Shown here piece by piece: positions 5,442-31,816 of a DNA stretch of 64,000 bases. The stretch spans positions 1-64,000 of the forward strand of contig JAKOTR010000063.1 in assembly GCA_029776225.1 (NCBI GenBank). Reading direction: 5' to 3'. Under the pieces are notes generated by a model. The model saw only the letters and a list, made by a program, of their open reading frames with translations. It searched no databases and had not been told where the DNA came from. Both the position numbers and the translations under genes were made by a program. This DNA is from Acidobacteriota bacterium. Its GTDB lineage: Bacteria; Acidobacteriota; Terriglobia; Bryobacterales; Bryobacteraceae. Every line of letters starts with the position of its first letter. Position 1 is the stretch's first letter.

Positions 5442-6338
5442 TCAGCAAACCGCGACCGGACAGGGCGCCTCGCACACGATGTCGTACGCCCGGAAGCACA
5501 GCTTGGCGGGGCGCCAGCGCGCGTGGCCCTTTCCGATCACCACCAGGTCCGCCCCGAGGCCGCGGGCCACCGCCGCGATCGCCTGCTCGGGCGGGCCCGC
5601 TTCCAGCCAGACATCGGCTCGAGTTCCCACGGCGCTCTGCAGGCTGGCGATGTCCTGCCGGGCCCAGGTTCGTCTGGCCGCGTGCAGCTCTTCGTAATGC
5701 CAGATGCCCGGGGCGGCCCCGAAGCCGGAGTCGCAGTGCACAATCGACAGGCTGGCCTCGAAGCGTTCCGCCAGCCGCGCCGCCCACCGCAGAACCCTGC
5801 CGCTGCTCGGCCCGAGCGCCAGAGCGCAGAGCACCCGTTGGATGTCGAGCGGTCCAGCGGCGTCTCCGACCCACGTCCATACAGGGCAGGGGGCGTCTTG
5901 AATGATCCGCGCCGTGAGAGAGTCGTGGAGCAATCCGAGAAAGCGCTTTCTGCCGCGCGTGGGCATCACGATGAGCCGGATGTTCTCCCGCCGGGCATGG
6001 TCGAGAATTCGCTGCGCCGGATCGCCCCTCAGGGAGTAACGCCGGAAGGGAACGGTCTCCAGCACTTCGGACACGGCCCGCTCTATCTTGCCTTCTTCCG
6101 GGGTCAGCGGGCTATCGCTGCCCGGCCGCGCCGGCGCGCCGACGTGAACCAGCAGCACTTCCGCCTCAAACCGCCGCGCAAGATCGGCTGCACGCCGCGC
6201 CGCCGTAAGGGACCGTTCTGTAAAATCGACGGGCAGTAGAATTTGATTGAGGCTGCGCTTGCCATTTGCGCCGCCCGCATGCCCCACGCCGGCTGCTGCG
6301 TCCGTTCCCCGCGTAAACTCGGAGTTCTTCGCAAGCAT
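5442..6338 (-). CDS. Tandem universal stress protein (two UspA domains)
   Basis: A 298-aa cytoplasmic protein with two UspA repeats, the first beginning ILLPVDFTERS near residue 30 and the second near residue 160. Each ends with a phosphate-binding stretch (MPTRGRKRFLGLL and IGKGHARW) and the family's terminal P-C-P-V strand. The second repeat lacks the clean G-x2-G-x9-G-S/T motif, so only the first may bind ATP. I place the start at ATG 6338, preceded by GGGGGAG; an open frame continues 240 bases upstream but has no domain and no ribosome-binding site. Family members support survival under stress, and the neighbouring antiporter fits an ion- or pH-stress role, which is inference. Confidence 0.9.
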   Translation of the reverse strand: MLAKNSEFTRGTDAAAGVGHAGGANGKRSLNQILLPVDFTERSLTAARRAADLARRFEAEVLLVHVGAPARPGSDSPLTPEEGKIERAVSEVLETVPFRRYSLRGDPAQRILDHARRENIRLIVMPTRGRKRFLGLLHDSLTARIIQDAPCPVWTWVGDAAGPLDIQRVLCALALGPSSGRVLRWAARLAERFEASLSIVHCDSGFGAAPGIWHYEELHAARRTWARQDIASLQSAVGTRADVWLEAGPPEQAIAAVARGLGADLVVIGKGHARWRPAKLCFRAYDIVCEAPCPVAVC

Positions 6339-6405
6339 GGCTCCCCCAATAAAGCTGCTTGCACAACCCGTGCCAGAGAGTCGCAAATGTGAAATCTGCG
6401 GCCGG

Positions 6406-24951: not shown

Positions 24952-26826
24952 GTGCTTGTTCGACTGATTGCCGCCGGCCTGCTCGCCGCCGCGCTGAGTG
25001 GAGCCGAGAGACCGCTGTATCTGAAGACGCGGACGATCACCGCGGCGCGCCGGGCCGAGGAGAGCCGCACCGCCGAAAGCCACACCGCCGCCCCCCGCCG
25101 GCTGTCTGCGGCGCGCAGGCATCTGCTGGTTCAATTTCGCGACGCGCCCCGCGCCGAGTGGGTGCGGGAGCTCCAACAGCGCGGCGCTACCGTGCTCGAC
25201 TACGTTCCGGACCACGGCTTTCTTGTTTCGGTCGCCGAGGGCGCCAACCTGGAGGGAATGGACCTGGCCCTGGCCGAGCCTCTGCGCCCGGCCGATAAGG
25301 TGAGCCCGCTGTTGCAGCGGGTACCGCGCTTGGGCATCCGGCGCATGGTCATGCCGGAAACGTTCGTGGTTGAGTTCCACCGCGACGTCCTCACGGCCGA
25401 AGCGCGCGAGCTGGTGCGAGCCCACGGCCTGGCCGTCCGCGAGCACCCCGACCTGTTGCCGAACCAGCTTCTTGTTCAAAGCACGTACGAGGATGTCGTC
25501 CGGCTGAGCGAGTGGGACGAAGTCGCGTATGTGTTCCCGGCTTCGCGGGAACTGACGGCGGGGGAACGCGTGTATGCCTGCCCGGGAGCTTCCACCCTCT
25601 ATGGGCGGGTGGGTCAGTACACGGCGCGAATCGGCGACGGTTGGGATGGGCCAGGCAAGGGCGCGGCCGAAATCGGCTATTACCTTGGGCCGCTGGCAAG
25701 CGCGCTGCCCCGCGCTCAGGTGGCGGCAGAGGTCCTTCGCGGGCTGACCGAGTGGAGCAGGTACGCCTCTGTCCAGTTCATGCCCGCCAGCAGCCCCAAC
25801 GCCTCCCGGTCTATCTCGATCCTGTTCGCAAGGCGGGCACACGGGGACGGATATGCCTTCGACGGCCCGGGAGGGGTCTTGGCTCACACCTTCTACCCTT
25901 CGCCGCCCAACCCCGAGCCCATCGCCGGCGATATGCACTTCGACGACGAGGAGAACTGGCGTATTGGCGAGGACTTGGATGTGTTCACCGTGGCGCTGCA
26001 CGAAGCCGGGCACGCGCTTGGACTGGGGCATTCCGATAATCCTTACTCGGTGATGTACCCGTACTACCGGCGCGTCACCGCGCTTACCGAGGAAGACATA
26101 GCGGCCATTCGCGAGCTTTACGCCCCAGCGGGCATCCCGGAAACCCCGGCGGAGCCGGAACCGCCTGTTGAGCCCGGCCCGGAACCGCCCGTCGATCCTG
26201 CCCCGGAGCCCCCCGTCAATCCCAAACCCGAGCCGCCCGTCGACCCTGACCCGCCGGCGCCGCCGGTCGCTCCGACGCTTTCCATTACGGTCCCAACCAC
26301 CGCGCCCACTTACGTCTCCCAAGCGCCTGTGGTAAAACTGGCGGGCTCGGCGGATCACCCCGACGGAATCCTCGAGGTCACCTGGCGGAATGCCGCTGGC
26401 GAGGGAGGCAAGGCTGTTGGCACGCGCGCCTGGGTGGTGCCCGAAGTGCCGCTGCGCGCCGGGTCTAACCTCATCACCGTGACCGCTGTTGCCGCCAGCG
26501 GAACCTCGGCTTCCCGGACGATTACGGTGACCTATGCCGGGGCGAACGATACAACCGCGCCCTCGCTCGTTATCCTCTCGCCGGCAAGCACCAGCTTCGC
26601 AACCAGCGCCGCAACGGTGGTTATCAGTGGGAGGGCCGCGGACAGCTCAGGCATCGCCCGCGTCACGTGGACCGATTCCACCGGCAAAACCGGCGACGCC
26701 TCAGGCACGACGTCGTGGAACACCGGCCCCATACCCTTGCGCGTGGGCTCAAACGTCATCACGATCCGGGCTTACGATTCGGCCGGAAACATGGCGTGGA
26801 GATCGGTGGCGATCACGCGGCGGTGA
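24952..26826 (+). CDS. Matrixin-like zinc metalloprotease with Pro-rich linker and Ig-like repeats
   Basis: A 624-aa secreted protein starting at GTG 24952 with a signal peptide (to about 18). A non-catalytic N-terminal region (about 40-200) is followed by a metzincin domain with ALHEAGHALGLGHSD (about 350-364), an HExxHxxGxxH zinc site, and the Met-turn YSVMYPYY. A linker (about 397-440) repeats the unit P-E-P-P-V-[DEN]-P. Two Ig-like repeats of about 90 residues follow, each ending V-P-L/I-P/R-x-G-S-N-x-I-T-[IV]. The arrangement resembles secreted matrixins with adhesion modules that hold the enzyme at a polymer surface. It is divergent from the NHL gene, with 66 bp between starts. Confidence 0.82.
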   Translation: MLVRLIAAGLLAAALSGAERPLYLKTRTITAARRAEESRTAESHTAAPRRLSAARRHLLVQFRDAPRAEWVRELQQRGATVLDYVPDHGFLVSVAEGANLEGMDLALAEPLRPADKVSPLLQRVPRLGIRRMVMPETFVVEFHRDVLTAEARELVRAHGLAVREHPDLLPNQLLVQSTYEDVVRLSEWDEVAYVFPASRELTAGERVYACPGASTLYGRVGQYTARIGDGWDGPGKGAAEIGYYLGPLASALPRAQVAAEVLRGLTEWSRYASVQFMPASSPNASRSISILFARRAHGDGYAFDGPGGVLAHTFYPSPPNPEPIAGDMHFDDEENWRIGEDLDVFTVALHEAGHALGLGHSDNPYSVMYPYYRRVTALTEEDIAAIRELYAPAGIPETPAEPEPPVEPGPEPPVDPAPEPPVNPKPEPPVDPDPPAPPVAPTLSITVPTTAPTYVSQAPVVKLAGSADHPDGILEVTWRNAAGEGGKAVGTRAWVVPEVPLRAGSNLITVTAVAASGTSASRTITVTYAGANDTTAPSLVILSPASTSFATSAATVVISGRAADSSGIARVTWTDSTGKTGDASGTTSWNTGPIPLRVGSNVITIRAYDSAGNMAWRSVAITRR

Positions 26827-26882: not shown

Positions 26883-26976
26883 TACAATCCCTGGGGGATT
26901 TGCGGACGGAAAAACACGAAAAAGCACACCCGGGCAGTCCTCGTGTCCCGGGCGCGTTTGTCCGGCACAGGCGGGA

Positions 26977-27510
26977 TCAGGCCCTGACCGGCTGCGCGGC
27001 CTGCGTCAACTGCCGCAGTTGCTCCCGCATCGTCTCGAGCGAGGAGACCAGCCGGCGGACATCCACCCGTCCGATGCCGATCGTCTGGAGCGCCAGGCGC
27101 AACTCCACCATCAGCATTGCGTAGTTGAAAATCAGCCGCTGCTTCAGCAGCAACCCGGCCAGGTCGGGCCGGTCCTGGGAAGCGCTCAACATGACCATCT
27201 TGGCTGCCGTGGACAGCCGGTCAAAATCGCGGCGGAGGCAGCGGAGATAGTGCCGGAAAACACGCCGGCGTTCAGCCTGAAGCTTTTTGGAGATTTTCGG
27301 ATGAAATCCCGGCTGCGCCGCCAGAAAATCGTAGTCTTCCTCGACAAATAGCCTCTCCATCGGCCGGTACCGGGCGATGGAAAACTCGCGGCACCATTCC
27401 AGGTCCACCTGCTCATCGCCGTCCCGCGCAGTGAGACGGCGAAACAGAAGCAGGAACGCCAGGCCGACCAAGAGGGCAAGCACTACAGCGCTTGCAAGTG
27501 CGACATTCAT
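26977..27510 (-). CDS. Membrane-anchored helical protein, unknown
   Basis: A 177-aa protein with one N-terminal transmembrane helix (residues 3-23) and a long helical, Arg/Leu-rich cytoplasmic part (about 40-170) that looks coiled, ending in a run of leucine heptads (LVSSLETMREQLRQL). ATG 27510 follows GGGAGGAG, so the longer upstream reading is not used. I do not recognise the family. It is the 3'-most gene of a minus-strand group of unknown genes, 109 bp downstream of the seven-helix membrane gene. Confidence 0.72.
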   Translation of the reverse strand: MNVALASAVVLALLVGLAFLLLFRRLTARDGDEQVDLEWCREFSIARYRPMERLFVEEDYDFLAAQPGFHPKISKKLQAERRRVFRHYLRCLRRDFDRLSTAAKMVMLSASQDRPDLAGLLLKQRLIFNYAMLMVELRLALQTIGIGRVDVRRLVSSLETMREQLRQLTQAAQPVRA

Positions 27511-27619
27511 AAACAGCTCCTCCCTGTAAAACACCCCGTCCAGAATAATCCAAGGCTTCACAGGAATGCAATCGATTTTCGGAGAATTACACGTAATATA
27601 GACGGTAATGTACGGCCTA

Positions 27620-28441
27620 TTACTTACGGGCTGCCCGCAAAAGGGTGGAGTTGATAGCCGCAAGATGCTCGACCAACATCTCCTCATCCTGAGGTGCCGG
27701 CCGGCGGAGGATCCGGAAAAGCCGGGTCTCGCCCTCGCGGTTCAGAAAGACAATCCAGACCGCCAGGCATACGGTCGTGATGCAGGAGAGGGCGATATTG
27801 ACAACCTGCGTTACCTGGCTCCCCATCACGTTACGCAAGAGGACGGCCACGGCCAGCGGCAGGAAATAAGCGGCATACGCGATGCAATGAACCACCACAT
27901 TCCGGCTCAAGGGCACCGGGCACCAGACCAGAAAACCGGTGATCAGCAGCAGGAAAACCACCAGGCTCGACAAAATCCCGCGGTCGATGGCCAGCAGATA
28001 TAAGAGGGTGGGGAACTGTTCACCCGGGTTGCTCAGATCCGTCCACAAAGTGACTGAGGAAAAGATCAGGGATACTACCAAGCCTCCCAGCAACGCCCAG
28101 CGGCCAAGTGTCGCGATTCCCTTGTAGTTTTGCAAAACCAGAGAGTACAGCTCAAGGACCACCAGGATGTAGAAGAACCACAGGATGACCTGCGTGACGA
28201 CCCACACCCAGGCATAGGCGTTCGTGGCGAAAGGAAGGTCCGGACGGCTATCCAACAGACGAGCTACAGGCGGGACCGCCGCCAGAAGCACCGCCCGGAA
28301 TACGCGGAACAGAAGATAGGCCGCAAAAAACCGGTAAATCCGGTGCAGAGCACCCTGCCGCAGCCGGAAATATAGGACCAGGTGGCCCAAGATTGTCAGC
28401 CACCAGAGATATGTCTCCAGCGCCTGAGGCGACAACGTCAT
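27620..28441 (-). CDS. Seven-helix integral membrane protein, unknown
   Basis: A 273-aa membrane protein with about seven hydrophobic segments (near residues 10-25, 35-57, 76-98, 112-130, 145-170, 182-202, 212-235) and a charged cytoplasmic C-terminus. No enzyme motif or transporter signature is visible. It precedes the 177-residue anchored protein on the same strand. The ribosome-binding site at ATG 28441 is weak. The two genes could be one operon, and both follow the peptide genes in the direction of transcription. Confidence 0.72.
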   Translation of the reverse strand: MTLSPQALETYLWWLTILGHLVLYFRLRQGALHRIYRFFAAYLLFRVFRAVLLAAVPPVARLLDSRPDLPFATNAYAWVWVVTQVILWFFYILVVLELYSLVLQNYKGIATLGRWALLGGLVVSLIFSSVTLWTDLSNPGEQFPTLLYLLAIDRGILSSLVVFLLLITGFLVWCPVPLSRNVVVHCIAYAAYFLPLAVAVLLRNVMGSQVTQVVNIALSCITTVCLAVWIVFLNREGETRLFRILRRPAPQDEEMLVEHLAAINSTLLRAARK

Positions 28442-28567
28442 AGTACCGGCCCGACGGCCTAATCAATTCTATCACCCCGCGTTCACGGCATAAACAAAAA
28501 AACACCCTCCTGTTGCCAACCTCGGGGCCCCTATCCCCACTCACCCAACAGTACTAGTCCCCGATGA

Positions 28568-28681
28568 TCACTTGGAATAGGGGCAGGGGAAGCAGTGGGG
28601 GATCGGGTCGTGCCAGTCGGCGGTCGCAACACCCGTCACACCCAGGGCCAGCATCAACGCGAAGAAAACTCTCAGCAACAT
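28568..28681 (-). CDS. Secreted 37-residue peptide, copy 2
   Basis: This short gene encodes a 37-aa peptide. Residues 1-21 are a signal peptide (MLLRVFFALM start, cleavage after VATA), leaving a mature 16-mer DWHDPIPHCFPCPYSK with a C-F-P-C pair, four prolines and two histidines. The start ATG 28681 has a near-perfect ribosome-binding site (AAGGAGGT eight bases upstream). The neighbour at 28704 encodes exactly the same peptide. The eight nucleotide differences are all silent, which shows that the protein sequence is under selection. The role is unknown; a secreted signal, a metal- or thiol-binding peptide or a modified peptide precursor are possible. No maturation enzyme is adjacent. Confidence 0.75.
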   Translation of the reverse strand: MLLRVFFALMLALGVTGVATADWHDPIPHCFPCPYSK

Positions 28682-28703
28682 CGCAGATAACCTCCTTCAG
28701 TTC

Positions 28704-28817
28704 TCACTTGGAATAGGGGCAGGGGAAGCAATGGGGGATCGGGTCGTGCCAGTCGGCGGTCGCAACGCCGGTCACTCCCAAAGCCAACATCAATGCGAAG
28801 AAAACTCTCAGCAACAT
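28704..28817 (-). CDS. Secreted 37-residue peptide, copy 1
   Basis: The upstream member of the tandem peptide pair, 22 bp before copy 2. It encodes the same 37 residues: signal peptide, then DWHDPIPHCFPCPYSK. The ribosome-binding site GGAGG lies 11 bases before ATG 28817. Silent differences from copy 2 fall in codons 8, 11, 12, 13, 14, 16, 17 and 29. The promoter region upstream (28860-28930) contains an 18-bp palindrome shared with the regulator gene at 29425-30210, so the pair is probably controlled by that regulator. The two peptide genes are likely one transcript. Confidence 0.78.
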   Translation of the reverse strand: MLLRVFFALMLALGVTGVATADWHDPIPHCFPCPYSK

Positions 28818-28861
28818 TAGAAGAATCTCCTCCAGAAATCAGGTTTTTTACGTGCAATGAA

Positions 28862-28879
28862 CAGGTTACATGGAACCTG
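28862..28879. repeat. Inverted repeat overlapping the peptide promoter
   Basis: CAGGTT and AACCTG are perfect six-base arms separated by six bases. The repeat overlaps the predicted -10 element of the peptide genes and could be a repressor site. No copy is found at the regulator promoter. Confidence 0.45.
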
Positions 28880-28893
28880 CGCGAACGCAACAA
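28865..28893 (-). promoter_or_regulatory. Predicted promoter of the peptide pair
   Basis: TTGTTG (28893-28888), 17-base spacer, TGTAAC (28870-28865) on the minus strand. The match to consensus is moderate; the transcript would have a leader of about 40 bases before copy 1. Confidence 0.4.
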
Positions 28894-28905
28894 AAGCCGA
28901 TAAGA

Positions 28906-28923
28906 TTTTCTGAATTCAGAACA
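28906..28923. promoter_or_regulatory. Palindromic operator candidate, peptide promoter
   Basis: TTTTCTGAATTCAGAACA contains the perfect 14-bp palindrome TTCTGAATTCAGAA (28908-28921). It matches the site at 30344-30361 in 16 of 18 positions. Its centre is about 57 bases before the predicted peptide transcription start, and it also lies upstream of the divergent gene at 29010. Confidence 0.6.
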
Positions 28924-29009
28924 ACGGCTTCCCGCGGTTTCCAAAATGGAACGCCCTGGAAAGATCGGCGTTTTCGTGTAAAATGGGGCAGGATTAGAAA
29001 GTGTGGGCG

Positions 29010-29468
29010 ATGAAACGCCACGAGCCCAAGGGAAACCTGGAAAGAACCGCCATGGCGGACCTCTGGCGGCACACACTCTCGCAGATTCCCAGTGTTTTTG
29101 GGCGTCTCGTGTATCTCACTTCACTTCGCGACCAGAACACCGGACGCTATGAACACTACGGGCTAAGCCAGGCTTTCGGCGAGGACGAGGCCGACTCGGT
29201 GTTGCGCCAGAGCCACGAACAGGCCTTCGCCGAGTGGCTCTGTTTCACGCTCGAGCAGCAGAAGGCGGACCTGGACCTCTATCTCGCCGGCCTGAACGGA
29301 AACCGCCGCACGATCATCAACACGTGGATCCGCCTGGCGCCGTACAGAAACCTCGTGCCTGCCATCGCACGGGAAGTCGAAAGGCAGCTCTATCTGGCGG
29401 ACCTGGAGACGATACTCGAGTTGCTCAGGAGCGAGTACGGCGTCGCTTCCCCTGGTCAAGACGCATAG
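29010..29468 (+). CDS. Unknown 152-residue protein
   Basis: A soluble, mostly helical protein. Distinctive segments are SVFGRLVYLTSLRD, RYEHYGL and EWLCFTLEQQKADLDLYL, which look like a conserved domain, but I cannot name the family. ATG 29010 is used; GTG 29001 and ATG 29052 are alternatives, the latter behind GGAAAG. A TAAAAT element lies just upstream (near 28978). The gene is divergent from the peptide pair across the palindrome at 28906-28923, and its last 44 bases overlap the end of the convergent regulator gene. Confidence 0.68.
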   Translation: MKRHEPKGNLERTAMADLWRHTLSQIPSVFGRLVYLTSLRDQNTGRYEHYGLSQAFGEDEADSVLRQSHEQAFAEWLCFTLEQQKADLDLYLAGLNGNRRTIINTWIRLAPYRNLVPAIAREVERQLYLADLETILELLRSEYGVASPGQDA

Positions 29469-30210
29469 CTACCGCGCACACCTGCCCGAGTATGTCGATC
29501 TCGTCGGGATAGGCATAGATTTCCGGGCTGCACTGCGAGGCGGGGTGCGGCTGAAGCAGAATGTGGTTGCCCGTAACATTGCACCAGCAACAGGCGTATC
29601 CGTTGCGGTGTTCAAAGAAATAGATGGGCCGGTCGAATTCGCTGGCCCAGGTGTTTTCCGTCACTTTCCTTCGGCTCTCGTCGATCACCACGAGCGAGCC
29701 GGGTTGCAGCAACGGGTACATGGTCCAATCCTCGGTCCCAACGAATCCGTAACGATGGTTCTTCAGATCGAGCCCGTTCAGCAGCACCAGCGGCAGCTTG
29801 CCCCAGCGCTGGATCATCCGGCTCAGATAGGTGGTGCGGCGCAGGTCGATGCCGGGGTCGAGCGAGAGCGGGAGCTGAACCGATGAGTGCGGATTCGGCA
29901 CAAAGTTGACCGTGTGCGTCCGCTCGATTTCGACCACGTTCATCGAATCGGCCGGGAGGGCGGTCAGGTCCACACCGTACCATTCCAGCACCTCCGTGAT
30001 GTCGAGCCTGTAAATCGCACACAAAGAATAGAGCCGGTATATCGTGGGGACAGTCCCTTTGTTCTCGATGTCCGCTAGCCTGCTCAGCGCGATTATGAAC
30101 TCATCGTTTTTATGGCGTTCGGCAATGCGCAAGCTCGCTTCTTCTACGTCCCGGTAGCGGAGGTTGAGCCGTTCCCGGGCTCTTTTTAGTTTCTGTCCGG
30201 CTTCCTCCAT
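29425..30210 (-). CDS. XRE-family regulator with S24/LexA-like sensor domain lacking the protease residues
   Basis: A 261-aa transcription regulator. Residues 4-72 form an XRE-type helix-turn-helix. Residues about 150-255 resemble the S24/LexA C-terminal domain, with GTEDWTMYPLLQPGSLVVID in place of the LexA G-x-S-M-x-[DP]-x-[IL]-x-x-G-D segment. Threonine 163 replaces the catalytic serine, and no lysine occupies the V-K-R-L position (the region reads CCWC), so self-cleavage is not expected and the domain probably senses a ligand or mediates dimerisation. ATG 30210 follows AGAGAGG. The promoter region carries a palindrome also found at the peptide genes, suggesting autoregulation and control of the peptides. 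Confidence 0.8.
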   Translation of the reverse strand: MEEAGQKLKRARERLNLRYRDVEEASLRIAERHKNDEFIIALSRLADIENKGTVPTIYRLYSLCAIYRLDITEVLEWYGVDLTALPADSMNVVEIERTHTVNFVPNPHSSVQLPLSLDPGIDLRRTTYLSRMIQRWGKLPLVLLNGLDLKNHRYGFVGTEDWTMYPLLQPGSLVVIDESRRKVTENTWASEFDRPIYFFEHRNGYACCWCNVTGNHILLQPHPASQCSPEIYAYPDEIDILGQVCAVAMRLDQGKRRRTRS

Positions 30211-30297
30211 GCTATGATCCTCTCTCGGCTGGCTCGAGCGGCGGGAGAGCGTTCCACCAAGTTGGACACTTGAAAGCAAAGTACCAGCTCCGCAAGA

Positions 30298-30326
30298 ATT
30301 ATATCGGTGTGGGAGAAGCGGAGCAA
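30298..30326 (-). promoter_or_regulatory. Predicted promoter of the XRE/S24-like regulator
   Basis: TTGCTC (30326-30321), 17-base spacer, TATAAT (30303-30298) on the minus strand. The -10 element is perfect. The predicted start is near 30291, giving a leader of about 80 bases. Confidence 0.6.
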
Positions 30327-30343
30327 GCGCGCCGCAGCGATTC

Positions 30344-30361
30344 TGTTCTGAATTCGGAACA
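30344..30361. promoter_or_regulatory. Palindromic operator candidate, regulator/ubiX promoter
   Basis: TGTTCTGAATTCGGAACA is an 18-bp palindrome with one mismatched pair, matching 28906-28923 in 16 of 18 positions. Its centre is about 61 bases before the predicted regulator start, similar to its place at the peptide promoter (about 57). It lies 23 bp before the ubiX start on the other strand and so could repress or start-block ubiX. Confidence 0.62.
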
Positions 30362-30384
30362 AAATATTTTCGGGGAAGGTGATT

Positions 30385-30960
30385 TTGCACATTGTCGTTG
30401 GCATAACGGGCGCCAGCGGGTCCATCTACGGCCTGCGGATCCTGGAAAAGCTGCACCGGAACTCCCAGGTGGAGGTCCACCTGCTCATCACCAGGTCCGG
30501 CGAGCGCACCCTCTACCTGGAAACAGGGAAGAAAAGGGCCGATCTGAAGGCCCTGGCGCGCCACTGCTACTCGATCGACGATGTCGGGGCGCGGCTGGCA
30601 AGCGGCTCCTTCCCCACCCATGGAATGGTCGTGGCGCCGTGCTCGATCCGGACCATGTCCGCGATCGCCGCCGGCATCAGCTCCAACCTGCTGCTCCGCG
30701 CCGCCGACGTCGCTTTAAAGGAGCGCCGCAAACTGGTTCTGATGGTGCGGGAATCCCCCTTTCACCTCGGCCATCTGCGTTCCATGACCGCGCTTACGGA
30801 AATGGGCGCCATCATTGCGCCGCCGATCCCGGGCTTCTATCACAAGCCTCAGACCGTGCTAGACCTGGTCGATCATTCCGTAGATAGGGTACTGGACCTG
30901 TTAGGAGTACCTGATCCGGATGCCCGCAGGTGGGAGCCGCATCACCCTCAAGGAGAGTAA
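30385..30960 (+). CDS. ubiX: UbiX family flavin prenyltransferase
   Basis: A 191-aa flavoprotein that joins dimethylallyl-phosphate to FMN, making the prenyl-FMN cofactor of UbiD-type decarboxylases. The N-terminal VGITGASGSIYGLRILE binds FMN, and VAPCSIRTMSAIAAGISSNLLLRAADV and LVLMVRESPFHLGHLRSM are the family's active-site segments. I use TTG 30385, behind GGAAGGTGAT; GTG 30379 is an alternative without a spaced ribosome-binding site. It precedes pheA on the same strand (1 bp apart) and is divergent from the XRE/S24-like gene. No ubiD is in the window, so its partner lies elsewhere. Confidence 0.92.
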   Translation: MHIVVGITGASGSIYGLRILEKLHRNSQVEVHLLITRSGERTLYLETGKKRADLKALARHCYSIDDVGARLASGSFPTHGMVVAPCSIRTMSAIAAGISSNLLLRAADVALKERRKLVLMVRESPFHLGHLRSMTALTEMGAIIAPPIPGFYHKPQTVLDLVDHSVDRVLDLLGVPDPDARRWEPHHPQGE

Positions 30961-30961
30961 T

Positions 30962-31816
30962 TTGAAGAAAGCCACCGAGCGAGTCGCGTTTCAGGGCGAA
31001 AAAGGCGCCTTCAGTCAGGAGGCGGTGAGAAAACTGCTGGGCGAGCGGGCCGAGGTCATCCCCTGCCAGCGCTTCGAGGACGTCTTTCTGAGGCTCAAGG
31101 AGAAGGAGGCTACCGCTGCCGTCGTCCCGATCGAAAACACGCTCGCGGGATCCGTGCACGAGAACTACGACCACCTGCTCGCCTACGATTTCGAGATCCG
31201 CGCCGAGACGAACGTCCGCATCAACCACCACCTGATCGCGCCGCCGGGAGTGCGGTTCCGCGACATACGCCAGGTCTACTCTCACCCGGTGGCGCTCAAC
31301 CAGTGTCTGCGGTTCTTTAACGAGAACCCGCAGATCGAAAGAGTGCCGTTCTACGACACCGCCGGCAGCGTCAGGATGGTGATGACCGAGAAGCGAAAGG
31401 ACGCCGCCGCAATCGGTTCCGCCGTGGCCGCGGAGATCTACGGCGCCCACATCGTGCGCCGCTCCCTGGAAGACGACCGCCGCAATTTCACCCGGTTCTT
31501 CCTGTTGCGCCGCCCCGACTATCCCAAACGCGAACGCTGCGCCTCGGCGCGCAACGTCGAGTGGAAGACCACGCTGGTGTTCTCCACCCGGAACACGCCC
31601 GGCTCGCTGTTCCGCGCGTTGAGCGCGTTCGCTCTCCGCGACGTGAACCTCACCAAGATTGAATCCCGCCCGCTGCGCGGCCGCCCCTGGGAGTACCTGT
31701 TCTACGTGGACTTCATGGGGCGGGTTGACGAGGAGCGGGTCCGCAACGCGCTGGGGCACTTACGGGAGCTTGCGGATTTCATGCGCGTGCTCGGCTGCTA
31801 TCCCAAGGGCTGCTAG
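30962..31816 (+). CDS. pheA: Prephenate dehydratase with ACT domain
   Basis: A 284-aa enzyme for conversion of prephenate to phenylpyruvate in phenylalanine synthesis. The catalytic domain (1 to about 185) includes VPIENTLAGSVHENYD, YSHPVALNQC and the N-F-T-R-F-F active-site segment; the ACT domain (about 198-275) has NLTKIESRPLRGRPWEYLFYVDF, the phenylalanine-binding feedback motif. No chorismate mutase domain is present. TTG 30962 follows AAGGAG at good spacing; an in-frame ATG 42 bases upstream lies inside ubiX and is less likely. It sits between ubiX and an MFS gene, with 3 bp to the latter. Confidence 0.95.
   Translation: MKKATERVAFQGEKGAFSQEAVRKLLGERAEVIPCQRFEDVFLRLKEKEATAAVVPIENTLAGSVHENYDHLLAYDFEIRAETNVRINHHLIAPPGVRFRDIRQVYSHPVALNQCLRFFNENPQIERVPFYDTAGSVRMVMTEKRKDAAAIGSAVAAEIYGAHIVRRSLEDDRRNFTRFFLLRRPDYPKRERCASARNVEWKTTLVFSTRNTPGSLFRALSAFALRDVNLTKIESRPLRGRPWEYLFYVDFMGRVDEERVRNALGHLRELADFMRVLGCYPKGC

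Follow-up and report, generated by a model that had tools for sequence, protein, structure and literature searches.

What do two adjacent genes of 37 codons that encode one and the same peptide do, and which of their neighbors makes use of the product? The genes are found in the window, i.e., the whole stretch of 64,000 nucleotides from an Acidobacteriota bacterium (Bryobacteraceae) that was analyzed here. Their product is probably a self-specific secreted peptide signal that is read by the membrane protein encoded next to it, c3. The features of the locus are listed below.

26977 to 27513, minus strand: c4, no known family, downstream of c3, with an N-terminal hydrophobic stretch as seen by eye
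27620 to 28441, minus strand: c3, predicted seven-TM protein outside known families, putative receptor for the peptide
28568 to 28681, minus strand: peptide gene copy 2, product the same as that of copy 1
28704 to 28817, minus strand: peptide gene copy 1, 37 aa; leader approximately residues 1-21 (by eye), putative mature peptide DWHDPIPHCFPCPYSK, core HDPIPHCFPC
28908 to 28921: palindrome TTCTGAATTCAGAA, likely operator, in the stretch that separates c0 from the peptide genes
29010 to 29468, plus strand: c0, helical protein outside known families, oriented divergently to the peptide genes
29425 to 30210, minus strand: c1, regulator with an XRE-type HTH (weak match to Pfam HTH_19, below cut-off)
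30346 to 30359: palindrome TTCCGAATTCAGAA (as read on the minus strand), upstream of c1, likely operator

Both open reading frames translate into the identical sequence MLLRVFFALMLALGVTGVATADWHDPIPHCFPCPYSK and are separated by an intergenic gap of 22 bp (28682-28703). They differ in codons 8, 11, 12, 13, 14, 16, 17 and 29 by six transitions and two transversions, and all eight differences are synonymous; the probability that eight random changes would all be silent is approximately 7.6e-5. Each gene is preceded by a GGAG-type Shine-Dalgarno sequence. A sequence-only reading of this DNA had described the tandem genes, the gap, the silent differences and strong ribosome-binding sites, and the open reading frames and codons confirm this description. 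The boundary between leader and mature peptide (ATA|DW) was set by eye. A single peptide copy is present at the same position in each of two other species of the genus. Scans of Pfam and NCBIfam with the peptide, c0, c3 and c4 gave no credible match, as that reading had anticipated for the peptide, and the peptide family is, judging by its sequence, undescribed. A search of Rfam with 26900-31000 (up to E 1) showed no RNA element, and a promoter and terminator scan of the locus gave nothing outside the shuffle range.

Searches of 61 genomes (that of the window plus 60 relatives) and of 237 Bryobacteraceae genomes yielded homologues that have a Sec-type leader and the PxPxCxPC motif. These leaders make the secretion proposed earlier probable. 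The earlier reading had also held that a lack of homologous short open reading frames, or homologues marked by frameshifts and replacement drift, would speak against the peptide; homologues were found, and they do not follow that pattern. With a 31-row profile (E<=1e-3), the family is present in at least 145 of the 237 Bryobacteraceae genomes, corresponding to at least 92 of 148 high-quality genomes and at least 57 of 76 genera. Eighty neighborhoods, selected by peptide matches, were fetched. The constrained unit of the peptide is a core of approximately ten residues, xxPxPxCxPC, and the Bryobacteraceae cores listed have either CxPC or the spacing variant CxPxC.

Arrays of two or more single-core genes are present in 15 loci, the window among them, with up to five genes in tandem. 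These 15 arrays provide 55 gene pairs, which are not independent of each other, and the core is the same in every one of them. The core codons of array pairs show 120 synonymous and 0 non-synonymous differences in 550 compared, the leader codons 259 and 192 in 1280, and the tail codons 81 and 38 in 393 (nested open reading frames of L129 are excluded from these statistics). The array copies have thus had time to drift, with the core as the part that is preserved: its changes are silent, while leaders and tails drift. The absence of replacements in array cores, together with the probability calculated for the twin genes, upholds the earlier proposal that selection keeps the peptide intact. Between loci the core differs, with 85 distinct cores in 91 loci. 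These are the strict-core loci among 102 in which a peptide was detected (79, and a further 23 named loci that contributed new peptides), and at least one genome, G032, is counted twice (L056, L205). Peptide genes are also found away from the main array: in genome G171 a lone gene on another contig (L313:4766-4870) has the core of the main array (L314) and a different tail, and in genome G025 a second peptide, with the core EIPFPECWPC, lies by a broken c3-like gene (L311:4191-4937).

An alternative to tandem genes is repetition of the core within one precursor, up to nine times. Three identical cores per precursor are present in L117, L129 and L201, at least five in each of L225 and L232, both of which run off the contig, and nine in L227, from the MAG Candidatus Sulfopaludibacter sp. 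SbA3. Secreted precursors with repeated identical cores, a property of multi-core pheromone precursors, are thus found here, secretion being assumed from the leaders. Other precursors are mixed: that of L217 has four ILPIPRCYPC and three ILPIPKCYPC, and that of L122 has three core variants among four cores. L122 and L132 gave no peptide in the HMM search, yet hold polyproteins; both are outside the set used in the Mantel tests described below. The precursors of L226, L228 and L233 alternate between cores of the type IxPIPDCxPC and cores of the type GLPKCYPxC, and one protein may here provide two signals.

The order of genes at the locus is pheA (c2) and ubiX (c5), c1, the divergent c0, the peptide gene or genes, c3 and c4, with pheA and ubiX adjoining in most of the loci examined. 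Peptide, c0, c1, c3 and c4 are found together in 48 of 81 stretches; the rest are without one or more of them, and in several of the incomplete stretches the contig ends there. c3 is present in 11 of 11 genomes checked, including those where it is not adjacent to the peptide. The C-terminus of c1 is presumably S24-like. A PDB sequence search of c1 showed no relative, and a Pfam scan of c1 (E<=1) gave HTH models only, with no TPR-type peptide receptor of the RRNPP kind. For c0, the best fold match in VIA has a Z of 5.5, and Foldseek gave no match at E<=0.001.

Several other observations concern the surroundings of these genes. A matrixin-like metallopeptidase (Peptidase_M10, E 2.9e-39) encoded at 24952-26826 of the window (plus strand) adjoins c4; no homologue of it was clustered in the 20 neighborhoods first compared. 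Paralogues of c0 at L236:6606-6977 (contig C2 of the same genome) and L310:4987-5424 have no c1, c3 or c4 in the fetched stretch. A second locus type (L246, L250, L251, L252, L304 and L305) has c3 and c0 on the same strand with c1 facing them; four of these loci (L246, L250, L304 and L305) have, upstream of c3, another kind of small open reading frame for a secreted Pro-rich product.

The AlphaFold2 model of c3 (pLDDT 89.7), based on an alignment of 48 rows of which 47 are distinct (L209 is present twice), consists of seven TM helices and a C-terminal helix. K and R make up 18% of the predicted inside loops vs. 9% outside. The predicted topology, seven TM helices with the N-terminus outside, is that of a GPCR. 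All 50 matches listed by VIA are GPCR entries, with Z values of 10.8-12.6, which, being below approximately 13, may for helical bundles mean only a common helix arrangement; the best Foldseek match has an E of 0.28. No match to Pfam 7tm families was found in 13 c3 members, and none was found in a PDB sequence search with the 48-row profile. No catalytic output domain was recognized on c3, and Pfam showed no kinase domain of the Agr type in c3 or c4 of the window or in the 13 c3 members. In mobile-element checks, c3 of the window was without a relative in a phage collection, and a c3 from another family, f11, was without a relative among plasmids.

The locus is found in more than one family of the class. 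Among 399 sampled genomes (Bryobacteraceae included), c3 matches are present in 278 and c0 matches in 207; most sampled genomes of the related family f3 have neither. In family f7 a secreted precursor that contains one to five cysteine-free units similar to (A)DGxPLPPPxPP is encoded between c0 and c3. It was seen in 21 of the 26 loci inspected; upstream of c3, another three have a different precursor. The f7 repeats are similar and not always identical, with 194 silent and 46 replacement codon differences in 486; these counts are partly affected by repeats compared out of register and by units of L265 that were counted twice. In f11, c3 is preceded by a small secreted peptide, for example ...FADGGSPPPYCPSCDVGG, in 8 of the 11 loci inspected, or 6 with a stricter filter.

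Small open reading frames were counted in 47 loci outside the Bryobacteraceae that had been fetched for c0 or c3, not for peptides, within 1.3 kb upstream on the same strand (the Bryobacteraceae loci L251-L255 were excluded). A secreted Pro-rich small open reading frame is present upstream of 29 of 41 c3 genes vs. 10 of 164 other genes (Fisher P 1.6e-17), i.e., 19 of 24 c3 genes in f7, 6 of 11 in f11 and 4 of 6 in other families. No upstream peptide was detected for 12 of the 41, and the filter missed precursors otherwise seen in L259, L263, L264 and L269. The corresponding Bryobacteraceae figure, 63 of 65, is biased, as these loci were picked by peptide matches, and is unused as evidence. Extra c3 paralogues in the Bryobacteraceae have a peptide in 0 of 3 testable cases.

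Covariation of the core with its neighbors was assayed by partial Mantel tests, which can overstate significance, and the effects in Bryobacteraceae are small. The sets comprised 52 loci with c0, c1, c3 and c4 (the G032 duplicate is not among them), or 50 once the leader was added, and the division of c3 into an outer, periplasm-facing half and an inner half was fixed from the helix ends of the model before the test. In the 52 Bryobacteraceae loci the core and c3 are correlated when c1 and c4 are controlled for (r 0.125, P 1/4001). The outer half gives r 0.15 (P 1/4001) with c1, c4 and the inner half as controls, vs. r 0.011 (P 0.39) for the inner half with the outer half as control. Variability is likewise higher in the outer half (entropy 2.61 vs. 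2.17, P 7e-6). For c4 the correlation is r 0.189 (P 1/4001) given c1 alone and r 0.045 (P 0.11) given c1 and c3; for c0 given c1 it is r 0.057 (P 0.08). A smaller run of 35 loci gave r 0.17 (P 1/4001) for c3 and r 0.11 (P 0.03) for c1.

In the 50-locus set the leader correlates with the core when c1 is controlled for (r 0.213, P 1/3001) and, weakly, with the outer half of c3 over all pairs (r 0.095, P 0.04). Thus some shared history remains. With the leader as an added control, the core and the outer half show r 0.142 (P 1/3001). When only distant pairs are considered, the core gives r 0.125 (P 1/3001) with the outer half and r -0.005 (P 0.55) with the inner half, and the leader gives r 0.016 (P 0.37) with the outer half.

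In f7, one 9-mer was taken per locus, also for L271 and L273, which have two differing cores, and that of L266 was chosen by eye; the controls were c1 and c0, with c4 not among them. The 21 loci show r 0.50 (P 2e-4) for core and c3. The outer half has r 0.32 (P 0.007), the inner half r -0.005 (P 0.53) and c0 r 0.09 (P 0.22). After dereplication to 14 loci the values are r 0.48 (P 0.011) for c3, r 0.41 (P 0.0014) for the outer half, r -0.15 (P 0.88) for the inner half and r 0.24 (P 0.07) for c0. The core therefore covaries with c3 only in the predicted periplasm-facing half, and does so in two families.

Palindromes similar to TTCTGAATTCAGAA (at least 11 of 14 matches) are enriched at the locus, being present in 47 of 69 stretches upstream of the peptide and in 62 of 76 upstream of c1, vs. 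approximately 0.6 and 0.7, respectively, in base shuffles. The strict form TTCYGN4CRGAA has a background of 0.002 to 0.012 per stretch. In the Bryobacteraceae it is present near c0 in 19 of 71 loci and upstream of c1 in 59 of 70; the corresponding figures are 19 of 23 and 0 of 22 in f7, and 2 of 6 and 0 of 6 in f11. Presumably c1 binds the palindromes, and it may regulate its own gene in the Bryobacteraceae only, since the strict palindrome upstream of c1 was seen in that family alone among the three. The genome of the window has five sites of TTCYGANNTCRGAA: two at the locus, a pair before an AT-hook-like open reading frame and one inside an open reading frame (C42). A reversed control pattern gave two sites genome-wide, and the sites outside the locus may therefore be partly due to chance. 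The pair is on contig C80 of the same genome (L237:6003-6101 and 6142-6345, plus strand), where two such palindromes 85 bp apart precede the AT-hook-like open reading frame; its 67-aa product may be encoded by a further target of the locus regulator.

From these observations we infer the following course of events, including the direction of signaling and its output. The peptide would be secreted by way of Sec and its leader cleaved. The short Pro-rich product with its CxPC pair (HDPIPHCFPC in the window) would act outside the cytoplasm, and tandem genes or repeats within a precursor would multiply its copies and raise the dose. The periplasm-facing half of c3 would bind the peptide, such that a strain senses its own; c4 and c0 may pass the signal on or adjust it, and the palindrome in the promoter region of the peptide genes and c0 would be the binding site of the HTH regulator c1. 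A self-specific signal and its receptor are suggested by a core constant within arrays and variable between species, by copy amplification, by the adjacent 7TM gene and by covariation with the outer face. The conserved order c1-c0-peptide-c3-c4, the presence of c3 in all genomes checked, the small open reading frame enrichment and the palindromes also point to signal reading. Counted against it are the tracking of the core by c4 and leader, the differing cores of some precursors, the c3-like genes with no detected peptide and a c3 with no output domain.

A species-variable core that covaries with one membrane protein would fit an effector-immunity pair equally well, and the main rival to the peptide signal is a bacteriocin-like weapon against close relatives, with c3 as the matching immunity protein. 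This is unlikely, as the peptide belongs to one conserved chromosomal locus by pheA and ubiX in most loci examined and is widely present, the regulator and c0 are conserved with it, and the Pfam scan of eight window neighbors showed no ABC exporter or C39 peptidase. Less likely again is a RiPP, in which c0, c3 or c4 would be a new enzyme that modifies or processes the core. Multi-core precursors and conserved ORFans alongside them are in keeping with a RiPP; however, no modification enzyme was recognized in the locus of the window, where c0, c3 and c4 are ORFans, the covariation resides in the outer and not the inner half of c3, and a Sec-signal leader suggests early export.

Neither adjacency nor covariation requires that the peptide leave the cell. 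It could stay with c3 in the membrane or periplasm as a small regulatory subunit for control within the same cell, with no intercellular signaling, but up to nine cores and variability between species appear to exceed what a subunit would need, and the probability of this reading is lower still. The sequence-only reading had offered a secreted signal, a metal- or thiol-active peptide and the precursor of a modified peptide as options. The secreted signal is the one favored here, and a general metal or thiol role was set aside on account of the f7 loci, which have the same architecture and repeated cores without cysteine. A peptide whose cysteine pair binds metal or is redox-active is thus very improbable, despite the CxPC or CxPxC of the Bryobacteraceae cores listed; the residues that flank the cysteines also vary between species and not within arrays. 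The multi-core precursors, the 7TM neighbor, the regulator and the palindrome go beyond what was noted in the earlier reading.

Peptide signaling as such is already known. In the RRNPP and Agr systems of Gram-positive bacteria, a short secreted species-specific peptide is encoded beside a regulator or membrane receptor. The locus is similar in having a short secreted peptide gene beside a regulator and a membrane protein, and differs in that no TPR receptor or histidine kinase is recognized here, the hosts are diderm and the precursors are tandem or multi-core. The secreted yeast alpha-factor precursor MFalpha1 is reported to have repeated copies of the mature peptide, in a number that varies between isolates (PMC5850478), and alpha-factor is read by the 7TM receptor Ste2 (PMC7570734). 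The likeness to MFalpha1 and Ste2 lies in a presumably secreted precursor with repeated peptide copies and a predicted 7TM partner. That system is eukaryotic, however, no sequence relation was seen, the repeats here are also found as separate tandem genes, and no G protein is known. BtsS, a bacterial receptor of the LytS type, has seven TM helices with the N-terminus in the periplasm and binds its ligand on that side (PMC10653868). c3 is likewise predicted to have seven TM helices and a periplasmic N-terminus, but BtsS is a histidine kinase that binds pyruvate and c3 is without a recognized kinase domain. By analogy, the locus would work like a multi-core pheromone with a 7TM receptor; membership in the GPCRs or in a known bacterial signaling family is not claimed.

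No description of a peptide/7TM locus of this kind was found in the open literature. Of its components only the HTH belongs to a known family, and no such bacterial architecture was found. A broader interpretation, held more tentatively though as a serious possibility, is that of a class-wide ligand-receptor system, in which secreted, often multi-core, self-specific pheromones are paired with a kinase-less GPCR-like 7TM receptor next door. The specificity of the core is directly testable, since each core can be read from sequence and synthesized. If this is true, fungal alpha-factor and Ste2 would have a bacterial counterpart in this system, and a group of bacteria known largely from soil and water MAGs would have a self-specific peptide language based on a 7TM protein without a recognized kinase. 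Very short genes, which are easily missed by annotation, can then be the key to a widespread ORFan locus.
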